This document shows positions 35,928-43,823 of a stretch of DNA of 44,284 nucleotides, one piece after another. The stretch's first letter is position 1. Each line of letters begins with the position of its first letter. Source of the stretch: Nitrososphaerales archaeon (lineage in GTDB: Archaea; Thermoproteota; Nitrososphaeria; Nitrososphaerales; Nitrososphaeraceae); assembly GCA_029237505.1 (NCBI GenBank), contig JARBAW010000118.1, positions 1-44,284 on the forward strand. Direction: 5' to 3'. The notes below the pieces were generated by a model. That model had not been told where the DNA came from, ran no database searches, and was given only the letters and a program-made list of their open reading frames with translations. The translations under genes were made by a program, and so were the position numbers.

Positions 35928-36260
35928 ATGAGTAAAGATAATGATCCATTCAGTAAACTTATTAAAGAAAATATTGAAATGGCCTCAAATCAAATAAAGC
36001 ACAATGTAGAGATGGCCTCAAATCAAATAAAGCACAATGTAGAAATGGGAACGGCAATGACTAATTCTTTTATCCAGATGAGTGGGACCCTCAGCAAGGA
36101 GACAACAGTTGCGTTTGAAAATGCGAGGAAAGAAATGATGGCATCGGCTGAAAGAATGAGGAATGAAATGATGGCATCGGCTGAAAGAATGAGAAAAGAA
36201 ATGATGACTTCTGCAGAGAAAATGAAAAATAGCCTTCATGTGGCAAAGCGAAAAACATAA
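35928..36260 (+). CDS. Helical protein built of 11-residue repeats
   Basis: NIEMASNQIKH/NVEMASNQIKH and MASAERMRNEM/MASAERMRKEM/MTSAEKMKNSL. Confidence 0.65.
   Translation: MSKDNDPFSKLIKENIEMASNQIKHNVEMASNQIKHNVEMGTAMTNSFIQMSGTLSKETTVAFENARKEMMASAERMRNEMMASAERMRKEMMTSAEKMKNSLHVAKRKT
35979..36043 (+). repeat. Tandem repeat, period 33 bp, 2 copies
   Basis: ATGGCCTCAAATCAAATAAAGCACAATGTAGA at 35979 and 36012. Confidence 0.9.
36132..36230 (+). repeat. Tandem repeat, period 33 bp, 3 copies (third diverged)
   Basis: GAAATGATGGCATCGGCTGAAAGAATGAG at 36132 and 36165, diverged copy at 36198. Confidence 0.88.
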
Positions 36261-36401: not shown

Positions 36402-37745
36402 TTGACTCAGGTGGTAGCAAGTGATGTTAAGCAATTACGTTCGGATTTTATTAACGTAAGAAAAACTACTTCAGATATCTTTCTCCCAATTTCGACAGAA
36501 GATGCGGTTATGCAGTCTGATCCGTTTGGAAGTACTCCAAATTGGCATATAGCACATGTTACGTGGTTTTTTCAAAAAATACTTGAAAAATATAGGCAGA
36601 ACATAGATGCTAGTTCAATAAATACCGATTATCTCAACTCATATTATCAACGCTATAGCAAGATATTGCCAAAATCGGATAGGGGAAAATTTCCAAGACC
36701 AAAGGTTTCTGATACGCTGAAATATAGAACCTTGATCGAAGATTTGTTTCTAAATTTTTTGGACAATATAGAAAGGAACAACTCGTTAACACGTTCGTTG
36801 GCATATGACATTGAGCTGGCGAATCAGCATGAAATGCAACACCAGGAACTCTTGGTCTATGATCTCCAGAACTATTTTCAAAGATTTGAAGATCCACTTG
36901 ATAATTATGAACCAAAATTGAGGAGAAGTAACAATTTGAACAATGATGCAAACATTGATCGGGGAATGGTTAAGGTTTCAGGCGGTTTGTTCGAACTTGG
37001 ATTTTCGGGAAGTGATTTTTGTTATGATAATGAAATTCCAGAACATAAAACGTATCTAAATCCATTCGAAATTGACAAATACCCTGTGACAAATAATGAA
37101 TTTCTTAAATTTATGGATGCAGGAGGATACCAGGATTATAATTATTGGTTATCCGACGGTTGGGATCTTGTAAGGGAAAAGCAATGGAATGCTCCACTAT
37201 ATTGGCAGAAGATTGATGGACAATGGTACAAGAAGGATTTTAGAGGTCTAAATAAACTTCCGCCAAATGAACCTGTTACTAACGTGAGTTACTATGAAGC
37301 GGATGCATATTCAAAGTGGTTGGGTAAGAGGTTACCTACAGAAGCTGAATGGGAAAAAGCAGCAAGCTGGGACGACAATTTGAAAAAGAAGAGATTATAT
37401 CCATGGGGTGACGAGTTTCCATCCGACAATACTTCAAACTTGCTAGAATCATGGAAATGGGCACCTTCGCAGATCGGTTCCTATCAAGAAGGAAAGAGTT
37501 ACTATGGTTGTTACCAGATGTTAGGAGATGTATGGGAATGGACATCTTCTGAATACACACTATATCCTGGGTTTAGATCCAAATTTTCTGAATATACTGA
37601 TAAATGGGCTATTAATCAGAAGGTATTGCGTGGGGGATCATTTGCAACTCCAAGATCACAAATTCGAAACAGTTATAGAAATTATTTCAAACCACATGAA
37701 AGAATTCCTTTTTCAGGATTTCGCTGTGTTAAGGATCTTCTTTAG
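36402..37745 (+). CDS. egtB: Ergothioneine biosynthesis sulfoxide synthase EgtB-like non-heme iron enzyme
   Basis: N-terminal DinB-like WHIAHVTWF, HEMQHQE (HX3HXE) and C-terminal FGE-sulfatase domain (RLPTEAEWEKAA, GDVWEWTSS, RGGSFATPRSQIRNSYRNYF). Confidence 0.88.
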   Translation: MTQVVASDVKQLRSDFINVRKTTSDIFLPISTEDAVMQSDPFGSTPNWHIAHVTWFFQKILEKYRQNIDASSINTDYLNSYYQRYSKILPKSDRGKFPRPKVSDTLKYRTLIEDLFLNFLDNIERNNSLTRSLAYDIELANQHEMQHQELLVYDLQNYFQRFEDPLDNYEPKLRRSNNLNNDANIDRGMVKVSGGLFELGFSGSDFCYDNEIPEHKTYLNPFEIDKYPVTNNEFLKFMDAGGYQDYNYWLSDGWDLVREKQWNAPLYWQKIDGQWYKKDFRGLNKLPPNEPVTNVSYYEADAYSKWLGKRLPTEAEWEKAASWDDNLKKKRLYPWGDEFPSDNTSNLLESWKWAPSQIGSYQEGKSYYGCYQMLGDVWEWTSSEYTLYPGFRSKFSEYTDKWAINQKVLRGGSFATPRSQIRNSYRNYFKPHERIPFSGFRCVKDLL

Positions 37746-38720
37746 TAAGATTAGAGTATACTGCTTGTTTGGATCGACAAAATTCTTTACTACTTGAAGA
37801 CCAGACCTATCTACCAACTTTTCAAGTCTGTTAAGTGAATATTTGTAGGAATTTTCAGTATGAATAGTCTCACCTTTCTTAAATTGAAATGTTTTTCCAA
37901 TAGATCGTATTCTAACCTGCTGGTCTATCTTTGAAATCAGGTGCATCTCGATTCTGTGTTTACTTGTGTTATAGAATGATTCGTGTTCAAAATTTGATAA
38001 TTTAAATTCTCCATCAAGTTCTTTATTAATTCTTGACAAGACATTGAGATTAAATTTTGCAGTAATACCATTCTTATCATTATAAGCCCTATCCAAAATT
38101 GACTTGTCCTTTTCTAAATCGATTCCAATTAGTAGTAAATCATTTTTTTTAACATATCTTGAAATTGAACTAAGAAAAATCTGCGCTTCTTTGGGATCAA
38201 AATTACCAATACTCGATCCTAGGAAAATTATGAATTTCCTTTTTGGAATATTCTTTTTTGATTTGATAAAGTGATTTATCTTGACAAGTCCTGTCACATA
38301 GTCTGAACAAACCCCGTAAATTTTCAAATTTGAATACTCACTAAACAAGTTTGAAATTGATTTTTTTAACATCTTCAAAGAAACATCGATAGGAAAATAA
38401 AAGACATTTTTTATTCCTGCTAGCATAGGTTCTAGCAGAATTCTAGTTTTCAGAGAATTCCCGTTTCCCAACTCAACAAGACTGATTTCCTCATCTCCTA
38501 TTATTTTTAGAATTTTGTCTACAGAATTTTTCAAAATTTGAGATTCTGTTCGATTAAGATAATATTCAGGTTGTTTGCATATTTCTTCAAACAGTTTTGA
38601 TCCTTTTTTATCATAAAAGAATTTAGGCGAAATATGTTTTTGTTTGTCATTCAGTCCGCTTTCAACCTCTTTTGCAAATTCATTATTTACTATGAATCTT
38701 TCATTATTGTGTATTAGCAA
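37713..38720 (-). CDS. egtD: L-histidine N-alpha-methyltransferase EgtD-like
   Basis: SPKFFYDKKGSKLFEEICKQPEYYLNRTESQIL, LVELGNGNSLKTRILL, IIFLGSSIGNF. Confidence 0.9.
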   Translation of the reverse strand: MLIHNNERFIVNNEFAKEVESGLNDKQKHISPKFFYDKKGSKLFEEICKQPEYYLNRTESQILKNSVDKILKIIGDEEISLVELGNGNSLKTRILLEPMLAGIKNVFYFPIDVSLKMLKKSISNLFSEYSNLKIYGVCSDYVTGLVKINHFIKSKKNIPKRKFIIFLGSSIGNFDPKEAQIFLSSISRYVKKNDLLLIGIDLEKDKSILDRAYNDKNGITAKFNLNVLSRINKELDGEFKLSNFEHESFYNTSKHRIEMHLISKIDQQVRIRSIGKTFQFKKGETIHTENSYKYSLNRLEKLVDRSGLQVVKNFVDPNKQYTLILLKKILNTAKS

Positions 38721-38781: not shown

Positions 38782-39624
38782 TCATCCGGATAATCTTGTA
38801 AAATAGTTCAGTCCTCCTTTCAATTCATTTTCATAGTCAGTATTTTGAATTGTAGGTTCAAAAGTAATGAATTTTGAATATTTTATCCCTTTGAGCGCTC
38901 GCACAACCTCCTTAAAATCTATGTGTGCAAATCCCGGCATTTTCCTATTGTTATCCGATACATGAATGTGCTTCAATAAACTACCGGTGACAACAATCGT
39001 CTCGTAAATAGAGTCTTCTTCTATGTTCATATGAAAAGTATCCAACATTATTCCCATATTTTCATGGTTTACCTGATTTACGACATACTTTGCATCTCCA
39101 GAATTCGTGCAAACAGGTGTGCTATAGCGATTTAATGGTTCGATGACAAGATTGATACCGTATTCGCTTGCATATTGCGCCAATTCACGTAATGGTCTTA
39201 CAAGGGACGACATCAATTTCTTTTTCATCTCTCCTGGTAGAAATTTGTGATTTCCATCTGAAATCAATGGCTTATCGCTAAACAGGCAAATGTTAAATGT
39301 CTTTCCACCCAAATCACGACAAAGAGTAACGCATTTTTTTACATAATTCTGGGCATCCAACAGTAACTTGTTATCTGTAGTAACCAAGGTTCGAGATTTG
39401 TTACTCGCACTGCTCAATCCCCACATGCCTGTTACCCCCGATACCTTAATTGAATGGGAATCAAACTGATGAATCAAATTCTTCACATCAATGAAATCAG
39501 GTTCACCATATACCTCTACTGTATTGAATCCTTGATTTTTTAGATTTTCAAGAGTTACCTCTATTGGTTCCAGATTCTTGAAAGATGATAGAGTAATAGA
39601 ATATTCCCAAGACATGCGCATCAA
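38782..39624 (-). CDS. Xylose-isomerase-like TIM barrel (EboE-like)
   Basis: GFNTVEVYGEPDF, LVIEPLNRYSTPVC, GIMLDTFHMNIEE, KHIHVSDNNRKMPGFAHIDF. Confidence 0.85.
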   Translation of the reverse strand: MMRMSWEYSITLSSFKNLEPIEVTLENLKNQGFNTVEVYGEPDFIDVKNLIHQFDSHSIKVSGVTGMWGLSSASNKSRTLVTTDNKLLLDAQNYVKKCVTLCRDLGGKTFNICLFSDKPLISDGNHKFLPGEMKKKLMSSLVRPLRELAQYASEYGINLVIEPLNRYSTPVCTNSGDAKYVVNQVNHENMGIMLDTFHMNIEEDSIYETIVVTGSLLKHIHVSDNNRKMPGFAHIDFKEVVRALKGIKYSKFITFEPTIQNTDYENELKGGLNYFTRLSG

Positions 39625-39628
39625 AATT

Positions 39629-40975
39629 TTAGGCTATCAGGCTTTTTAGATACTTGCCAATGGTAACTATGCTCAAATCATTGTCATTTTCAGTCCCAAT
39701 GTTTTTGATGTTGGACACAAAGACAGGATTGGAGGTTTGACCTTTTACGGGTAATCTCCCATGAGAACCCTTAACTAACTTACCATTCAACGGGATAGAT
39801 TTTGTACTAGGATCAAAAAATAGTTCCACCGGATCATATCCTGGTTTTCTATGAATGTCCACCCTTCTTGAAAAACTTGGAGCCTTGATCTGATCGAGCC
39901 ACCAATAATAACTAAACCATTTATCTTTGTTTGAAATTGCTATCATATCACCACTACGCTGGTGATTAATTCTGAATTGTTGTTTTAAATTATTATCGAG
40001 GATCATATCGATTCCTCTTATTCCTTCCAAAATTTTTGTTACTTGATTAGTATATCCTTCTTTAACATAGATATGTGCCACCTGGTGATCTACCATGGCA
40101 AATGCATTACTGTATTCTAGATCCAGATATTCAATTCCTTCTATTTCTCTAACAGCAACTAGATCATTTTCCCTAAATATGGAATTTAGCGGAATGTCAG
40201 AATTTACATCTGTGAATCCATACTCTGAAAATATGATGAATTGCGTTTCTTCTAACATTCCTAAACTAGTTACCTTCTTCACTAGTTTACCAACCAACTC
40301 ATCTACAAATATAAGATCATTCTTGAGATCTTTGTATGAAGTACCATTCCTCTGGAATGAATAGTCAAGATGGGGAATATATGTAAATAAGAAATTAGGC
40401 TTTTCATTTTCTAACACATATTCGGTTGCCATTTCTATCCATTCACTGGATCTTTTCGAAACAAGCGGCCCCCAATACCAGGTTAAGTCAAATTTTCCAA
40501 TTTTATTACTCAGTTTTTCATAGAATCCTGGTGGTTTGCTGTAACACCACATTATCATTTTGTCTTCCATATGCAACGGACGTGGGGTAAGGACAATGTC
40601 TGAATTTGAGTACATCGTATTCTGCCAGAACAAAACCGCTGTTTTTGAATCATTTTGTTTCATCTTGATAATATCCCAAATTCTGTCGGCTTGGACTAAA
40701 TTACTTGATTGTTCCCAAAATGTAACAGTATAGTGTTGCCTATCATAGAGCCCATTGGAAATTATTCCATGAACGTCCGGATATGATCCTGAAAGCAAGC
40801 TGCTCTGGACCGTACATGTTACCGCGGGAAATACCGTTTCTAATTCTCTGGTTTCTCCTGTTTGTGAAATCTTGAAAATATTTGGAGTTGTTTGTTCAGA
40901 TATATGCTTACTTTCTAAACCCACAATATCTATTACGATTATGCGTTTGACCATTGATCTATTGGATCTTACCAA
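39629..40975 (-). CDS. Alkaline phosphatase/nucleotide pyrophosphatase superfamily protein (EboF-like)
   Basis: IIVIDIVGLE, TVFPAVTCTVQSSLLSGSYPDVHGIISNG, YIPHLDYSFQRNG, FSEYGF, GSHG. Confidence 0.85.
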   Translation of the reverse strand: MVRSNRSMVKRIIVIDIVGLESKHISEQTTPNIFKISQTGETRELETVFPAVTCTVQSSLLSGSYPDVHGIISNGLYDRQHYTVTFWEQSSNLVQADRIWDIIKMKQNDSKTAVLFWQNTMYSNSDIVLTPRPLHMEDKMIMWCYSKPPGFYEKLSNKIGKFDLTWYWGPLVSKRSSEWIEMATEYVLENEKPNFLFTYIPHLDYSFQRNGTSYKDLKNDLIFVDELVGKLVKKVTSLGMLEETQFIIFSEYGFTDVNSDIPLNSIFRENDLVAVREIEGIEYLDLEYSNAFAMVDHQVAHIYVKEGYTNQVTKILEGIRGIDMILDNNLKQQFRINHQRSGDMIAISNKDKWFSYYWWLDQIKAPSFSRRVDIHRKPGYDPVELFFDPSTKSIPLNGKLVKGSHGRLPVKGQTSNPVFVSNIKNIGTENDNDLSIVTIGKYLKSLIA

Positions 40976-41000
40976 GAATTTAATTCTAATTATTCTTTTC

Positions 41001-41912
41001 TCAGGTCATGTACATCTTTCTTGCCAGTATTAGCAATGGACCAAGCAGTACCAATATGGGAAGTCCAATCGTCAATCCTGCTATGCCAGTAAGAAATACG
41101 GAGTCAAGGACGATAATGGACAAAATCATTAGTTGAATAGTTTGTTGTATCCCTGAAGAATCTTTCTTACGGATATTGTAAATAGCTCTAGCCATAATAA
41201 ATGAAAATAGAGCCAAAATCAATAGAGATTCGTATTTAAGGAACCCTATCAGATTGAATACAATAATTGAAGAAACAATTCCAGCAATAACAACAGGTAT
41301 CAAATATAATCTGAAATTTTCAGAAAATCCTTGAATTTCATATCGACTCAAGAATCCTATTAAGGACACATACACAAATGTTATTGTTAGGACAAAAACC
41401 AATTGGATATTCTGTGGAAAATTGTTTAAACCACCTATATTTGCACTTGTGCCCAGTATTACGTTTGTTAATCTCGCGGCCGCAATAGTGAAAGGACCCG
41501 CACTGGTATTCTTCAAATATTTATCATAACCAAATATAATAGCTAATAAAATCAACGATATACTAAATGTGGTAACATTGATAAGTAATGTTAAACTCAA
41601 TGCTATGGTAGTAAATATGATGGTAATAATAATGGCAATTTTTCTTGATATTTTACCTGATGCAATGGGTCTGTTCGGTCTTTCCTTCCTATCAATCTCA
41701 TAATCAAATAGATCGTTAAGTATAAGGCCTACACAGTAAAGAAGTAGGGAAATTGTTACCAATATGAGAATTTGTATAACTGACGTTATCATCAGAGTTA
41801 AGGTCGAAGCTAAAATAAATCCTATCAGAATATTTGATGGAAGAGTAAATAAGTTGGGCAATCTTATTAGGAGCAGATAATTTTTGAAATTAGGATTTTT
41901 CAAAGTAATCAT
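41001..41912 (-). CDS. UbiA-superfamily membrane protein (EboC-like)
   Basis: First Asp-rich motif NDLFDYEIDRKERPNRPIASGKIS, multiple TM helices. Confidence 0.88.
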   Translation of the reverse strand: MITLKNPNFKNYLLLIRLPNLFTLPSNILIGFILASTLTLMITSVIQILILVTISLLLYCVGLILNDLFDYEIDRKERPNRPIASGKISRKIAIIITIIFTTIALSLTLLINVTTFSISLILLAIIFGYDKYLKNTSAGPFTIAAARLTNVILGTSANIGGLNNFPQNIQLVFVLTITFVYVSLIGFLSRYEIQGFSENFRLYLIPVVIAGIVSSIIVFNLIGFLKYESLLILALFSFIMARAIYNIRKKDSSGIQQTIQLMILSIIVLDSVFLTGIAGLTIGLPILVLLGPLLILARKMYMT

Positions 41913-41969
41913 CTGAAGTAGACAAATTGAATTTTTAAATTATAATAAATTGAAAATAACATTTCTTAA

Positions 41970-42803
41970 CTAAAGATTACCAAGTGATTTAATAAACTTC
42001 ATTGATTGCTTTGCAGCATAAACAGGACAATCTTGATATGGATAAAGTTCTACTGTGATAAATCCGTCATAACCAATTTCTTTTAGTGACTTGAGAGTCG
42101 AGCTGATATCTATCGCACCTTCACCCAAAATCAAATGATTGTGTCGTCTCTCTGCACAAATATCTTCCAAATGAACATGGCGAATATATTCTGATAATTT
42201 GTGTATTACTCTTGATGGATCTTCACCAACGCAGAAGAAATGGCCCACGTCTAGATTTAATCCCACAGCTTCTGAGTCAATATTTTTGATAAAGTTAATA
42301 AATTGTTCAGAGTTTTCAATTAATAGATCAGGCTCAGGTTCTATAAGTATAGTAACGTTTTCCTTTTCTGCAGTATCTAATACCTGATTAATTCCATCTT
42401 CAAATAGTTTCAACAATTGATTTTTGCTCAATTCATTATTGACAATAGGTCCCCCCGGTTCGGTAGATATGTTTTTGGCGCCAAGTTTGCTTGCTAATTT
42501 AATACAATCTATGGTATGTTCTATTCGTAATTTCCGATAGCTTGGATCAATTTCAATCCATGAAGGACGATATGTGTCATTTATTGCAAAAAGAGTAAAT
42601 GCATTTAGATTGGAAATACTAATGTCTAATCTCTTCAATAATTGTTTGATTTCGTGGATTTCAATATCACTTTGTTCTTTAGGATATGCATGTGGTACAT
42701 CACAAAGAATTTCAATTCCTGTGTAGCCGATCTCTGACAAGACATTAATTGTTTCTACTAGCGAATATTTCTTAAAAGCATTTGTGCTAAACGCAAATTC
42801 CAT
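41970..42803 (-). CDS. Xylose-isomerase-like TIM barrel (EboE-like)
   Basis: GYTGIEILCDVPHAYP, ILIEPEPDLLIEN, GLNLDVGHFFCVGEDP, RHVHLEDI. Confidence 0.87.
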   Translation of the reverse strand: MEFAFSTNAFKKYSLVETINVLSEIGYTGIEILCDVPHAYPKEQSDIEIHEIKQLLKRLDISISNLNAFTLFAINDTYRPSWIEIDPSYRKLRIEHTIDCIKLASKLGAKNISTEPGGPIVNNELSKNQLLKLFEDGINQVLDTAEKENVTILIEPEPDLLIENSEQFINFIKNIDSEAVGLNLDVGHFFCVGEDPSRVIHKLSEYIRHVHLEDICAERRHNHLILGEGAIDISSTLKSLKEIGYDGFITVELYPYQDCPVYAAKQSMKFIKSLGNL

Positions 42804-42812
42804 GTCTCTAAG

Positions 42813-43622
42813 TTAGGGTCTCCACAGAAACTTGGTTGATTGCTTGTAAAATTCAAATGCATTGTAAAACGTTACTTTTTCTATATCACTGGTACGGAAG
42901 CCTCTCTTTTTCATTTCTTCTGCTACCTTTGGTACACTCAACGGATCAGAAACTCCCCAGTCGGCCGAGCTATTGATCATAATTTTTTCGAGGCCATTTT
43001 TTTCAATTATGTCGATAGCTCGTGAGGGGGAAAGCTTTGTTACGGGATAAACAGTTAATCCAGCCCAACATCCAATCTCCAGAGTTTTTTCTATTGTTTC
43101 TTCTGTATTATGATCAATTAAAATTTTATTTGTCATGTCCAATAGACTCTTGTTTTTAAGAACAGATTCAGTTCGCTTTAATCCTTCTTTTTTGTTAACA
43201 TGTGGGAGGTGTATCATTGTAAGCATTTTCTTATCTGTTGCAATGTCTAATTGCATTTGAAATAATTCGTCTTCTAAATCATTAATTAAATTATATCCTA
43301 TTTCACCTATAGCCACAACTCTATCTCTGTCAATGTATTCTGACATTGCTTTAAGCGCATTCAGTGCTAGAGGTCTGGCGGTTGATTCTTTTGGATTCAC
43401 TGATATACATACGTAATGATCGATACCAAATTCTTTCGATCTTTGAGTCTCAAACGAGATCATGTGTTCCCAATAGTCTTCAAAAGTACCTACAGTGGTC
43501 CTTGGACTCCCAAGCCAGAAAGAAGGTTGAACAATTACCTCTATTCCTGCTTTTGACATTGATTGATAATCATCCGTAGTACGTGAGTACATGTGTATGT
43601 GTGGATCAAAAAAACGTCCCAA
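42813..43622 (-). CDS. TatD-like metal-dependent hydrolase (EboB-like)
   Basis: FFDPHIHMYSRTTDDYQSM, FWLGSPRTTVGTFEDYWEH, AIGEIGYN, IHLPH, IDHNTEET, NSSADWGVSDPLSVPKVA. Confidence 0.9.
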   Translation of the reverse strand: MGRFFDPHIHMYSRTTDDYQSMSKAGIEVIVQPSFWLGSPRTTVGTFEDYWEHMISFETQRSKEFGIDHYVCISVNPKESTARPLALNALKAMSEYIDRDRVVAIGEIGYNLINDLEDELFQMQLDIATDKKMLTMIHLPHVNKKEGLKRTESVLKNKSLLDMTNKILIDHNTEETIEKTLEIGCWAGLTVYPVTKLSPSRAIDIIEKNGLEKIMINSSADWGVSDPLSVPKVAEEMKKRGFRTSDIEKVTFYNAFEFYKQSTKFLWRP

Positions 43623-43823
43623 AATTATTCACCCTTATTGAATCACATCCTTTTTTATATTTGTCTTGTGTATTTTAATACCTGTCATGCTAGAATAGTT
43701 CAATCCAAGACTTACATGCACCAAATTTTGTTCATAATTTGGCCGGTGGACCTTATTTTTTAATTCTGTAACACAGAATCTTAAAATTCACAATCAGTCA
43801 GTCCCTCTACTTGGAGTACTAGG

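Follow-up and report, generated by a model that had tools for sequence, protein, structure and literature searches.

The chemistry of the bacterial gene cluster that was named ebo in 2016 has long been open, despite its role in cyanobacterial scytonemin maturation and in Pseudomonas, where ebo genes are required for nematode repellence. An archaeal locus that carries part of this gene set raises the question of whether it is the remnant of such a cluster or a version in its own right, and what it might make. We addressed this question for an operon at positions 38782-43622 of contig JARBAW010000118.1, from a Nitrososphaerales archaeon of the family Nitrososphaeraceae (assembly GCA_029237505.1; 1.74 Mb in 189 contigs, 97.3% complete). 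The window analysed is the whole stretch from position 1 to 44,284 of that contig. A first-pass annotation had read the operon as five genes of a partial ebo cluster, namely EboB, EboE, EboC, EboF and a second EboE. Judged from its sequence, the operon is instead an archaeal, EboD-independent ebo variant with the order EboB-TIM1-EboC-EboF-TIM2, in which TIM1 and TIM2 denote two TIM barrel proteins, and not a broken ebo operon.

A need for ebo in metabolite export has been shown only in Nostoc punctiforme (PMC6282210), and Klicki et al. proposed that the cluster builds a cyclitol-plus-lipid carrier that exports the scytonemin monomer in Nostoc (PMC6282210). In the proposal of Yurchenko et al., the product is a prenylated cyclitol and sedoheptulose 7-phosphate may be the substrate of EboD (PMC5133447).

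Three genes of the operon encode EboB, EboC and EboF

All five minus-strand open reading frames (ORFs) were confirmed, with intergenic gaps of 9, 57, 25 and 4 nucleotides in order, just as first described. Beginning with the first gene of the operon, the predicted products are as follows.

42813-43622, minus strand: EboB orthologue, TatD-like metal-dependent hydrolase (269 amino acids)
41970-42803, minus strand: TIM1, xylose-isomerase-like TIM barrel of the type that replaces EboD in other ebo clusters (277 amino acids)
41001-41912, minus strand: EboC orthologue, UbiA-superfamily membrane prenyltransferase (303 amino acids)
39629-40975, minus strand: EboF orthologue, type I phosphodiesterase / nucleotide pyrophosphatase of the alkaline-phosphatase superfamily (448 amino acids)
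38782-39624, minus strand: TIM2, second TIM barrel, ketose-3-epimerase / IolO-like (280 amino acids)

Pfam assigned these products to TatD_DNase, AP_endonuc_2, UbiA, Phosphodiest and AP_endonuc_2, respectively. Every one of these superfamilies is large and Pfam alone does not discriminate within them, which leaves room for the view that the five genes are chance neighbours forming no functional unit. For an independent check, we trained profile models solely on bacterial ebo loci and used them to score the proteins of the window alongside their paralogues. The TatD protein reached 395 bits with the EboB model (E. coli TatD, 28; YcfH, 20), the UbiA protein 202 bits with the EboC model (further UbiA proteins from this genome and its relatives, 15-55), and the alkaline-phosphatase-superfamily protein 497 bits with the EboF model (nearest paralogues, 30 and 31). 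The last of these was also the sole PF01663 protein found in the genome. Its orthology rests on the profile-model scores, and trees were made for EboB and EboC.

In tblastn searches, EboB shared about 40-45% identity over 97-99% of its length with bacterial and haloarchaeal EboB; matches came from cyanobacteria, proteobacteria, Bacteroidota, Streptomyces and haloarchaea, and several of those annotated as EboB adjoin EboA. The three TatD motifs that had first suggested EboB were confirmed, and bacterial EboB proteins largely share them. At the positions expected to bind metal in TatD, the residues (H8, H10, E107, H138, H171 and D221) are at least 95% conserved across 143 alignment rows. In the EboB tree, for which E. 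coli TatD and YcfH formed the outgroup, the archaeal proteins lay within EboB. For EboC, the best NCBIfam model was EboC itself (151.8 bits, under the cut-off of 250), and in the tree the archaeal proteins fell on the EboC side of a branch with 97% support in the Shimodaira-Hasegawa-like approximate likelihood ratio test (SH-aLRT); the sole misplaced outgroup row (L185) was a wrong reading frame with a branch length of 10. Scores far above those of paralogues, together with trees that group EboB and EboC with Ebo proteins and not with paralogues, uphold the original assignment, and on these sequence criteria the TatD, UbiA and alkaline-phosphatase-superfamily proteins are true EboB, EboC and EboF.

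Among solved structures, the closest to EboC is that of digeranylgeranylglyceryl phosphate (DGGGP) synthase (6m31), with which EboC shares the UbiA superfamily and the first Asp-rich motif (N66-D67-D70-D74, at least 95% conserved). Unlike DGGGP synthase, EboC has no DxxD-type second Asp-rich motif; the corresponding motif of UbiA enzymes is reduced to E192, the one residue conserved there.

The operon is conserved in Nitrososphaeraceae and recurs in haloarchaea

The expectation that the gene linkage would be kept in relatives was borne out, as the same order, EboB-TIM1-EboC-EboF-TIM2, was found both within the window's own genus and across several more. Genus g2 has the TIM1-EboC-EboF-TIM2 block several kb away from EboB. 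Most of the Nitrososphaeraceae sampled have the operon, and it is sporadic in a single further family of the order (f9), four genomes of which carried it in a broader sampling of the phylum. EboB and EboF were both present in 27 of 61 genomes and both lacking from 28, while the six discordant genomes were all fragmented drafts (a weak 18-bit EboF match in G048 was not counted). In this 61-genome sample, those lacking both were four members of the family (G014, G017, G031 and G034) and all 24 genomes of other families; G034 yielded neither a PF01663 protein nor an EboC-type UbiA. With orthology scores far over those of paralogues, a gene order kept in many genomes and this joint presence and absence of EboB and EboF, the chance-neighbour reading is already refuted, and we give it next to no probability.

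Haloarchaeal plasmids carry the related arrangement EboB-TIM-EboC-TIM, with EboF nearby. The haloarchaeal clusters (plasmids of Halocatena, Halobaculum, Natronococcus and Haladaptatus; L038, L040, L234 and L039) thus share with the archaeal operon of the window the EboB-TIM-EboC order, EboF and a second TIM barrel, and in them, too, no EboA, EboD or EboE was found. They differ in having a dedicated inositol-3-phosphate synthase (MIPS) in three of four cases and in a second TIM barrel that is not of the TIM2 type.

EboB-like proteins of 28-34% identity in other families of the phylum were not counted as ebo, since the three such loci that were examined were without EboC or EboF. In two genomes of a further family of the phylum, the gene for a hydrolase remotely similar to EboB (about 30% identity; L231:9771-10538 and L233:9570-10346) is one gene away from a MIPS-like one and has carbamoyl-phosphate synthase-like genes close by; neither EboC nor EboF is present there. 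We also noted that in G022, a single contig of 2,833,868 bases, TIM2 is split over two frames (L022:5324-6207), suggesting a frameshift. G009, of the window's genus, holds two EboB copies on different contigs (L052 and L053), the second at 71% identity and adjoined by the companion dehydrogenase described below.

The two TIM barrels are not EboE

The claim that failed was the identity of the TIM barrels. Against the bacteria-only EboE model, TIM1 scored 24 bits and TIM2 gave no match, and against the NCBIfam EboE model (NF035939) TIM1 scored 39 bits with a cut-off of 250; we therefore rejected EboE, a protein of about 390 amino acids, as the identity of either. TIM1 instead reached 103 bits with a model of short actinobacterial ebo-linked TIM barrels, for which generic family members from ebo flanks scored 12 bits at most, and it is 45% identical to a haloarchaeal ebo TIM barrel. 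It thus belongs to the type that substitutes for EboD. TIM2 is IolO-like or ketose-3-epimerase-like: its best NCBIfam model was that of the 5-keto-L-gluconate epimerase IolO (139.6 bits, the cut-off of 300 not being reached), and its solved relatives are D-tagatose/D-psicose 3-epimerases and TM_0416. By eye, in an alignment, both barrels appear to keep the Glu-Asp-His-Glu metal site.

EboA and EboD, which had not been seen in the window, had no match in the whole genome either. The search for EboD, a sugar phosphate cyclase (PF01761), did give matches in 11 of 14 control genomes; for EboA (NF035938) no control genome matched, leaving that search without a positive control. The EboA model had no match in any archaeal locus surveyed and gave matches in bacterial loci.

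Compared with eboABCDEF, known from eustigmatophytes, Bacteroidota, Cyanobacteriota and others, the archaeal operon shares the tightly clustered EboB, EboC and EboF, but no EboA, EboD or EboE was found in it and it has two other TIM barrels instead. Taken strictly, it is not a full ebo operon, as EboD and EboE were not found; it is ebo-like at the level of EboB, EboC and EboF. The first-pass reading of a partial operon with two EboE proteins, which has lost EboA and EboD and serves small-molecule transport as in Nostoc, was right about this orthologous core. It is otherwise unlikely, since neither barrel is EboE and no transporter-like family is prominent among the genes common to the archaeal loci, although export as such may still be the role. 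Moreover, the same set, lacking EboA, EboD and EboE, is seen again in both haloarchaea and Nitrososphaeria, and the operon is for that reason better seen as a stable archaeal variant than as a product of decay.

EboD alternates with a TIM1-type barrel and MIPS

MIPS converts glucose 6-phosphate to inositol phosphate. We surveyed 73 loci with EboB, EboC and EboF, picked by similarity to EboB, for EboD, TIM1-type barrels and MIPS; the TIM1 and EboD models were partly trained on loci of this same survey. EboD was present in 33 of the 73 loci, none of which had a TIM1-type barrel or MIPS. A TIM1-type barrel was present in 35, of which 15 also had MIPS and none had EboD. The MIPS variant was found in Actinomycetota, in haloarchaea and on a Gemmatimonadota plasmid of Gemmatirosa. 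The EboB proteins of Gemmatirosa (MIPS and TIM1) and Deinococcus (EboD) are sisters with a support of 100, indicating a switch, and a gammaproteobacterial metagenome-assembled genome with TIM1 was placed among EboD-bearing relatives. When kinship was taken into account, EboD and TIM1 changed in opposite directions in three of six comparisons, in the same direction in none, and showed no difference in three (p 0.25).

Actinobacterial SCO3242-type ebo clusters with MIPS (for example, that of Streptomyces sp. NBC_00019, L041) share EboB, EboC, EboF and a TIM1-type barrel with the archaeal operon and have no EboD. Unlike the archaeal operon, they additionally hold EboA, EboE and a dedicated MIPS. 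Among plasmid records, 34 had a MIPS at least 40% identical to the haloarchaeal ebo MIPS, and 32 of these had EboB within 10 kb; ten plasmid records with a more distant MIPS had EboB in no case. The ebo-linked MIPS scored 271 bits to the Archaeoglobus enzyme versus 37 bits to that of M. tuberculosis. The source genome has a MIPS outside the operon cluster (G000:C114:3183-4256); it belongs to the M. tuberculosis type, with 367 bits to 1gr0 versus 23 bits for the ebo-linked type. A second MIPS paralogue was considered as an ebo partner in Nitrososphaeraceae and rejected, being present with and without ebo.

Two further arrangements were observed in the survey. A minimal EboB-EboC-EboF set with no EboD, MIPS or TIM1 nearby was seen in L104, L118, L119 and L124 (Kiritimatiellota, Paenibacillus, Planctomycetota and Verrucomicrobiota). 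The Streptomyces ebo clusters with MIPS in L041 and L242 have a ScyD/ScyE-family protein and a multicopper oxidase encoded at their flanks, recalling the scytonemin setting.

A companion dehydrogenase co-occurs with ebo

In 15 archaeal loci a medium-chain zinc dehydrogenase is linked to the operon, either about 1 kb upstream of EboB on the opposite strand or a few kb downstream. An orthologue (about 41% identity or more) was present in 28 of 33 ebo-positive genomes and in none of 28 ebo-negative genomes (Fisher p 2e-12; 0.002 within the family; neither value corrected for kinship). Contrasts within genera g7 and g12 ran in the same direction, and as a control the second MIPS paralogue showed no comparable co-occurrence with ebo. 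The copy in the source genome, at G000:C40:8264-9241, is cut by a contig end. The scyllo-inosose 3-dehydrogenase IolM was among the best models for this protein in most cases tested, at 119-161 bits with the cut-off of 450 not reached.

A possible prenylated cyclitol pathway

The alternation of EboD with MIPS, together with the inositol-type neighbours, favours an inositol-like ring. For the product and role of the archaeal variant we infer, with about even confidence, that this EboD-independent ebo would make a prenylated inositol-type cyclitol. MIPS would supply inositol phosphate, and the dehydrogenase and TIM barrels may oxidise, isomerise or epimerise the ring by keto-cyclitol chemistry, as in inositol pathways. 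At the membrane, EboC would add a polyprenyl chain, probably geranylgeranyl, acting most like DGGGP synthase, an enzyme that forms a prenyl ether on a phosphorylated polyol. EboF could cleave a phosphate or pyrophosphate ester, and EboB would perform a metal-dependent hydrolysis. In bacteria with EboD, that enzyme would provide the ring instead. More speculatively, the amphiphilic product might be a membrane carrier or helper that moves a small molecule out of the cell, by analogy with the scytonemin monomer in Nostoc.

The same enzymes could be read in the reverse direction, as turnover of an inositol-containing membrane lipid or polyol in which the head group is hydrolysed by EboF and EboB, the cyclitol is broken down by the dehydrogenase and TIM barrels, and EboC takes part in lipid repair or remodelling. 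An NPP-type (nucleotide pyrophosphatase/phosphodiesterase) protein, a hydrolase, a dehydrogenase and IolO/IolM-like proteins are all compatible with catabolism. However, the presence of MIPS within actinobacterial and haloarchaeal clusters, and of EboD in others, is anabolic, EboC comes from a family of synthetic enzymes, and bacterial ebo genes are required for export or a repellent trait (PMC6282210). We regard turnover as improbable.

A prenylated aromatic metabolite is likewise doubtful, and well short of the prenylated cyclitol in probability. Ubi-297, an EboC-type enzyme, when produced heterologously farnesylated 8-hydroxyquinoline-2-carboxylic acid (PMC9235831), although this tested substrate may be a stand-in. 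Against an aromatic acceptor, no aromatic-pathway gene is prominent among the genes linked to the archaeal operon, the partner genes encode sugar or cyclitol enzymes, and EboC is closest, among solved relatives, to DGGGP synthase, as noted above.

Several points weigh against a prenylated cyclitol. The aromatic farnesylation by Ubi-297 is the main contrary datum, coming from the sole EboC-type enzyme tested, and no archaeal ebo protein has a known product or activity. Five of the 73 surveyed loci had neither EboD nor TIM1, and once kinship is considered, the swap yields too few independent pairs for significance. MIPS, present in 55 of 61 genomes, is nearly universal across the order and therefore gives no co-occurrence test. 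The inositol link is one of gene context, and neither MIPS nor the dehydrogenase is linked to the operon in the source genome. Threonine dehydrogenase models score equally well for the companion dehydrogenase. Finally, of the Thermotoga maritima proteins, IolO is the best NCBIfam model for TIM2 and IolM is among the top models for the dehydrogenase, but both matches lie far under the curated cut-offs and the two predicted proteins are not members of those families.

A broader proposal, which we put forward tentatively and with less confidence than a prenylated cyclitol in archaea, is that ebo in all domains constitutes a single pathway to a prenylated inositol-type cyclitol. EboD would then make an inositol-like ring, rather than being primarily a sedoheptulose 7-phosphate cyclase, and would be exchangeable for MIPS plus TIM1; archaea would draw on cellular inositol phosphate, and the product might be a new class of membrane amphiphile. 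The swap of EboD for MIPS and a TIM barrel points to a concrete substrate class, and some of the haloarchaea and Streptomyces with the MIPS variant should be tractable. The known range of ebo is extended to archaea, including the soil lineage Nitrososphaeraceae. Reports of archaeal ebo, or of ebo clusters with MIPS, did not turn up in our search of the open-access literature, which left subscription papers and preprints largely uncovered.

Neighbouring genes and the upstream region

The following features adjoin the operon.

37713-38720, minus strand: egtD, histidine N-alpha-methyltransferase (NCBIfam TIGR03438, above cut-off)
43629-43661, minus strand: putative archaeal promoter and ribosome-binding site ahead of the operon, read by eye from the sequence

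The egtD gene starts 61 nucleotides downstream of the operon on the same strand. It is convergent with egtB (36402-37745, plus strand), their 3' ends overlapping, and this arrangement is kept in the genus. Both genes are known in ammonia-oxidising archaea and have been described as gained in the ancestor of that group (PMC7554672). Among the archaeal loci compared, adjacency of egtD and ebo was seen only within the window's own genus; ergothioneine genes were accordingly rejected as part of ebo function, and egtD probably lies outside it because the linkage is limited to one genus.

At 35928-36260 of the window is a 110-amino-acid protein with internal near-repeats (IKHNVEMASNQ, RNEMMASAERM) and a phasin-like or coiled-coil look, for which there was no Pfam or NCBIfam match. 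Upstream of the EboB gene, a TATA-like stretch, ATATAAAAAA, at 43660-43651 may serve as the promoter, and GGGTGA at 43634-43629 is the putative ribosome-binding site of the first gene.

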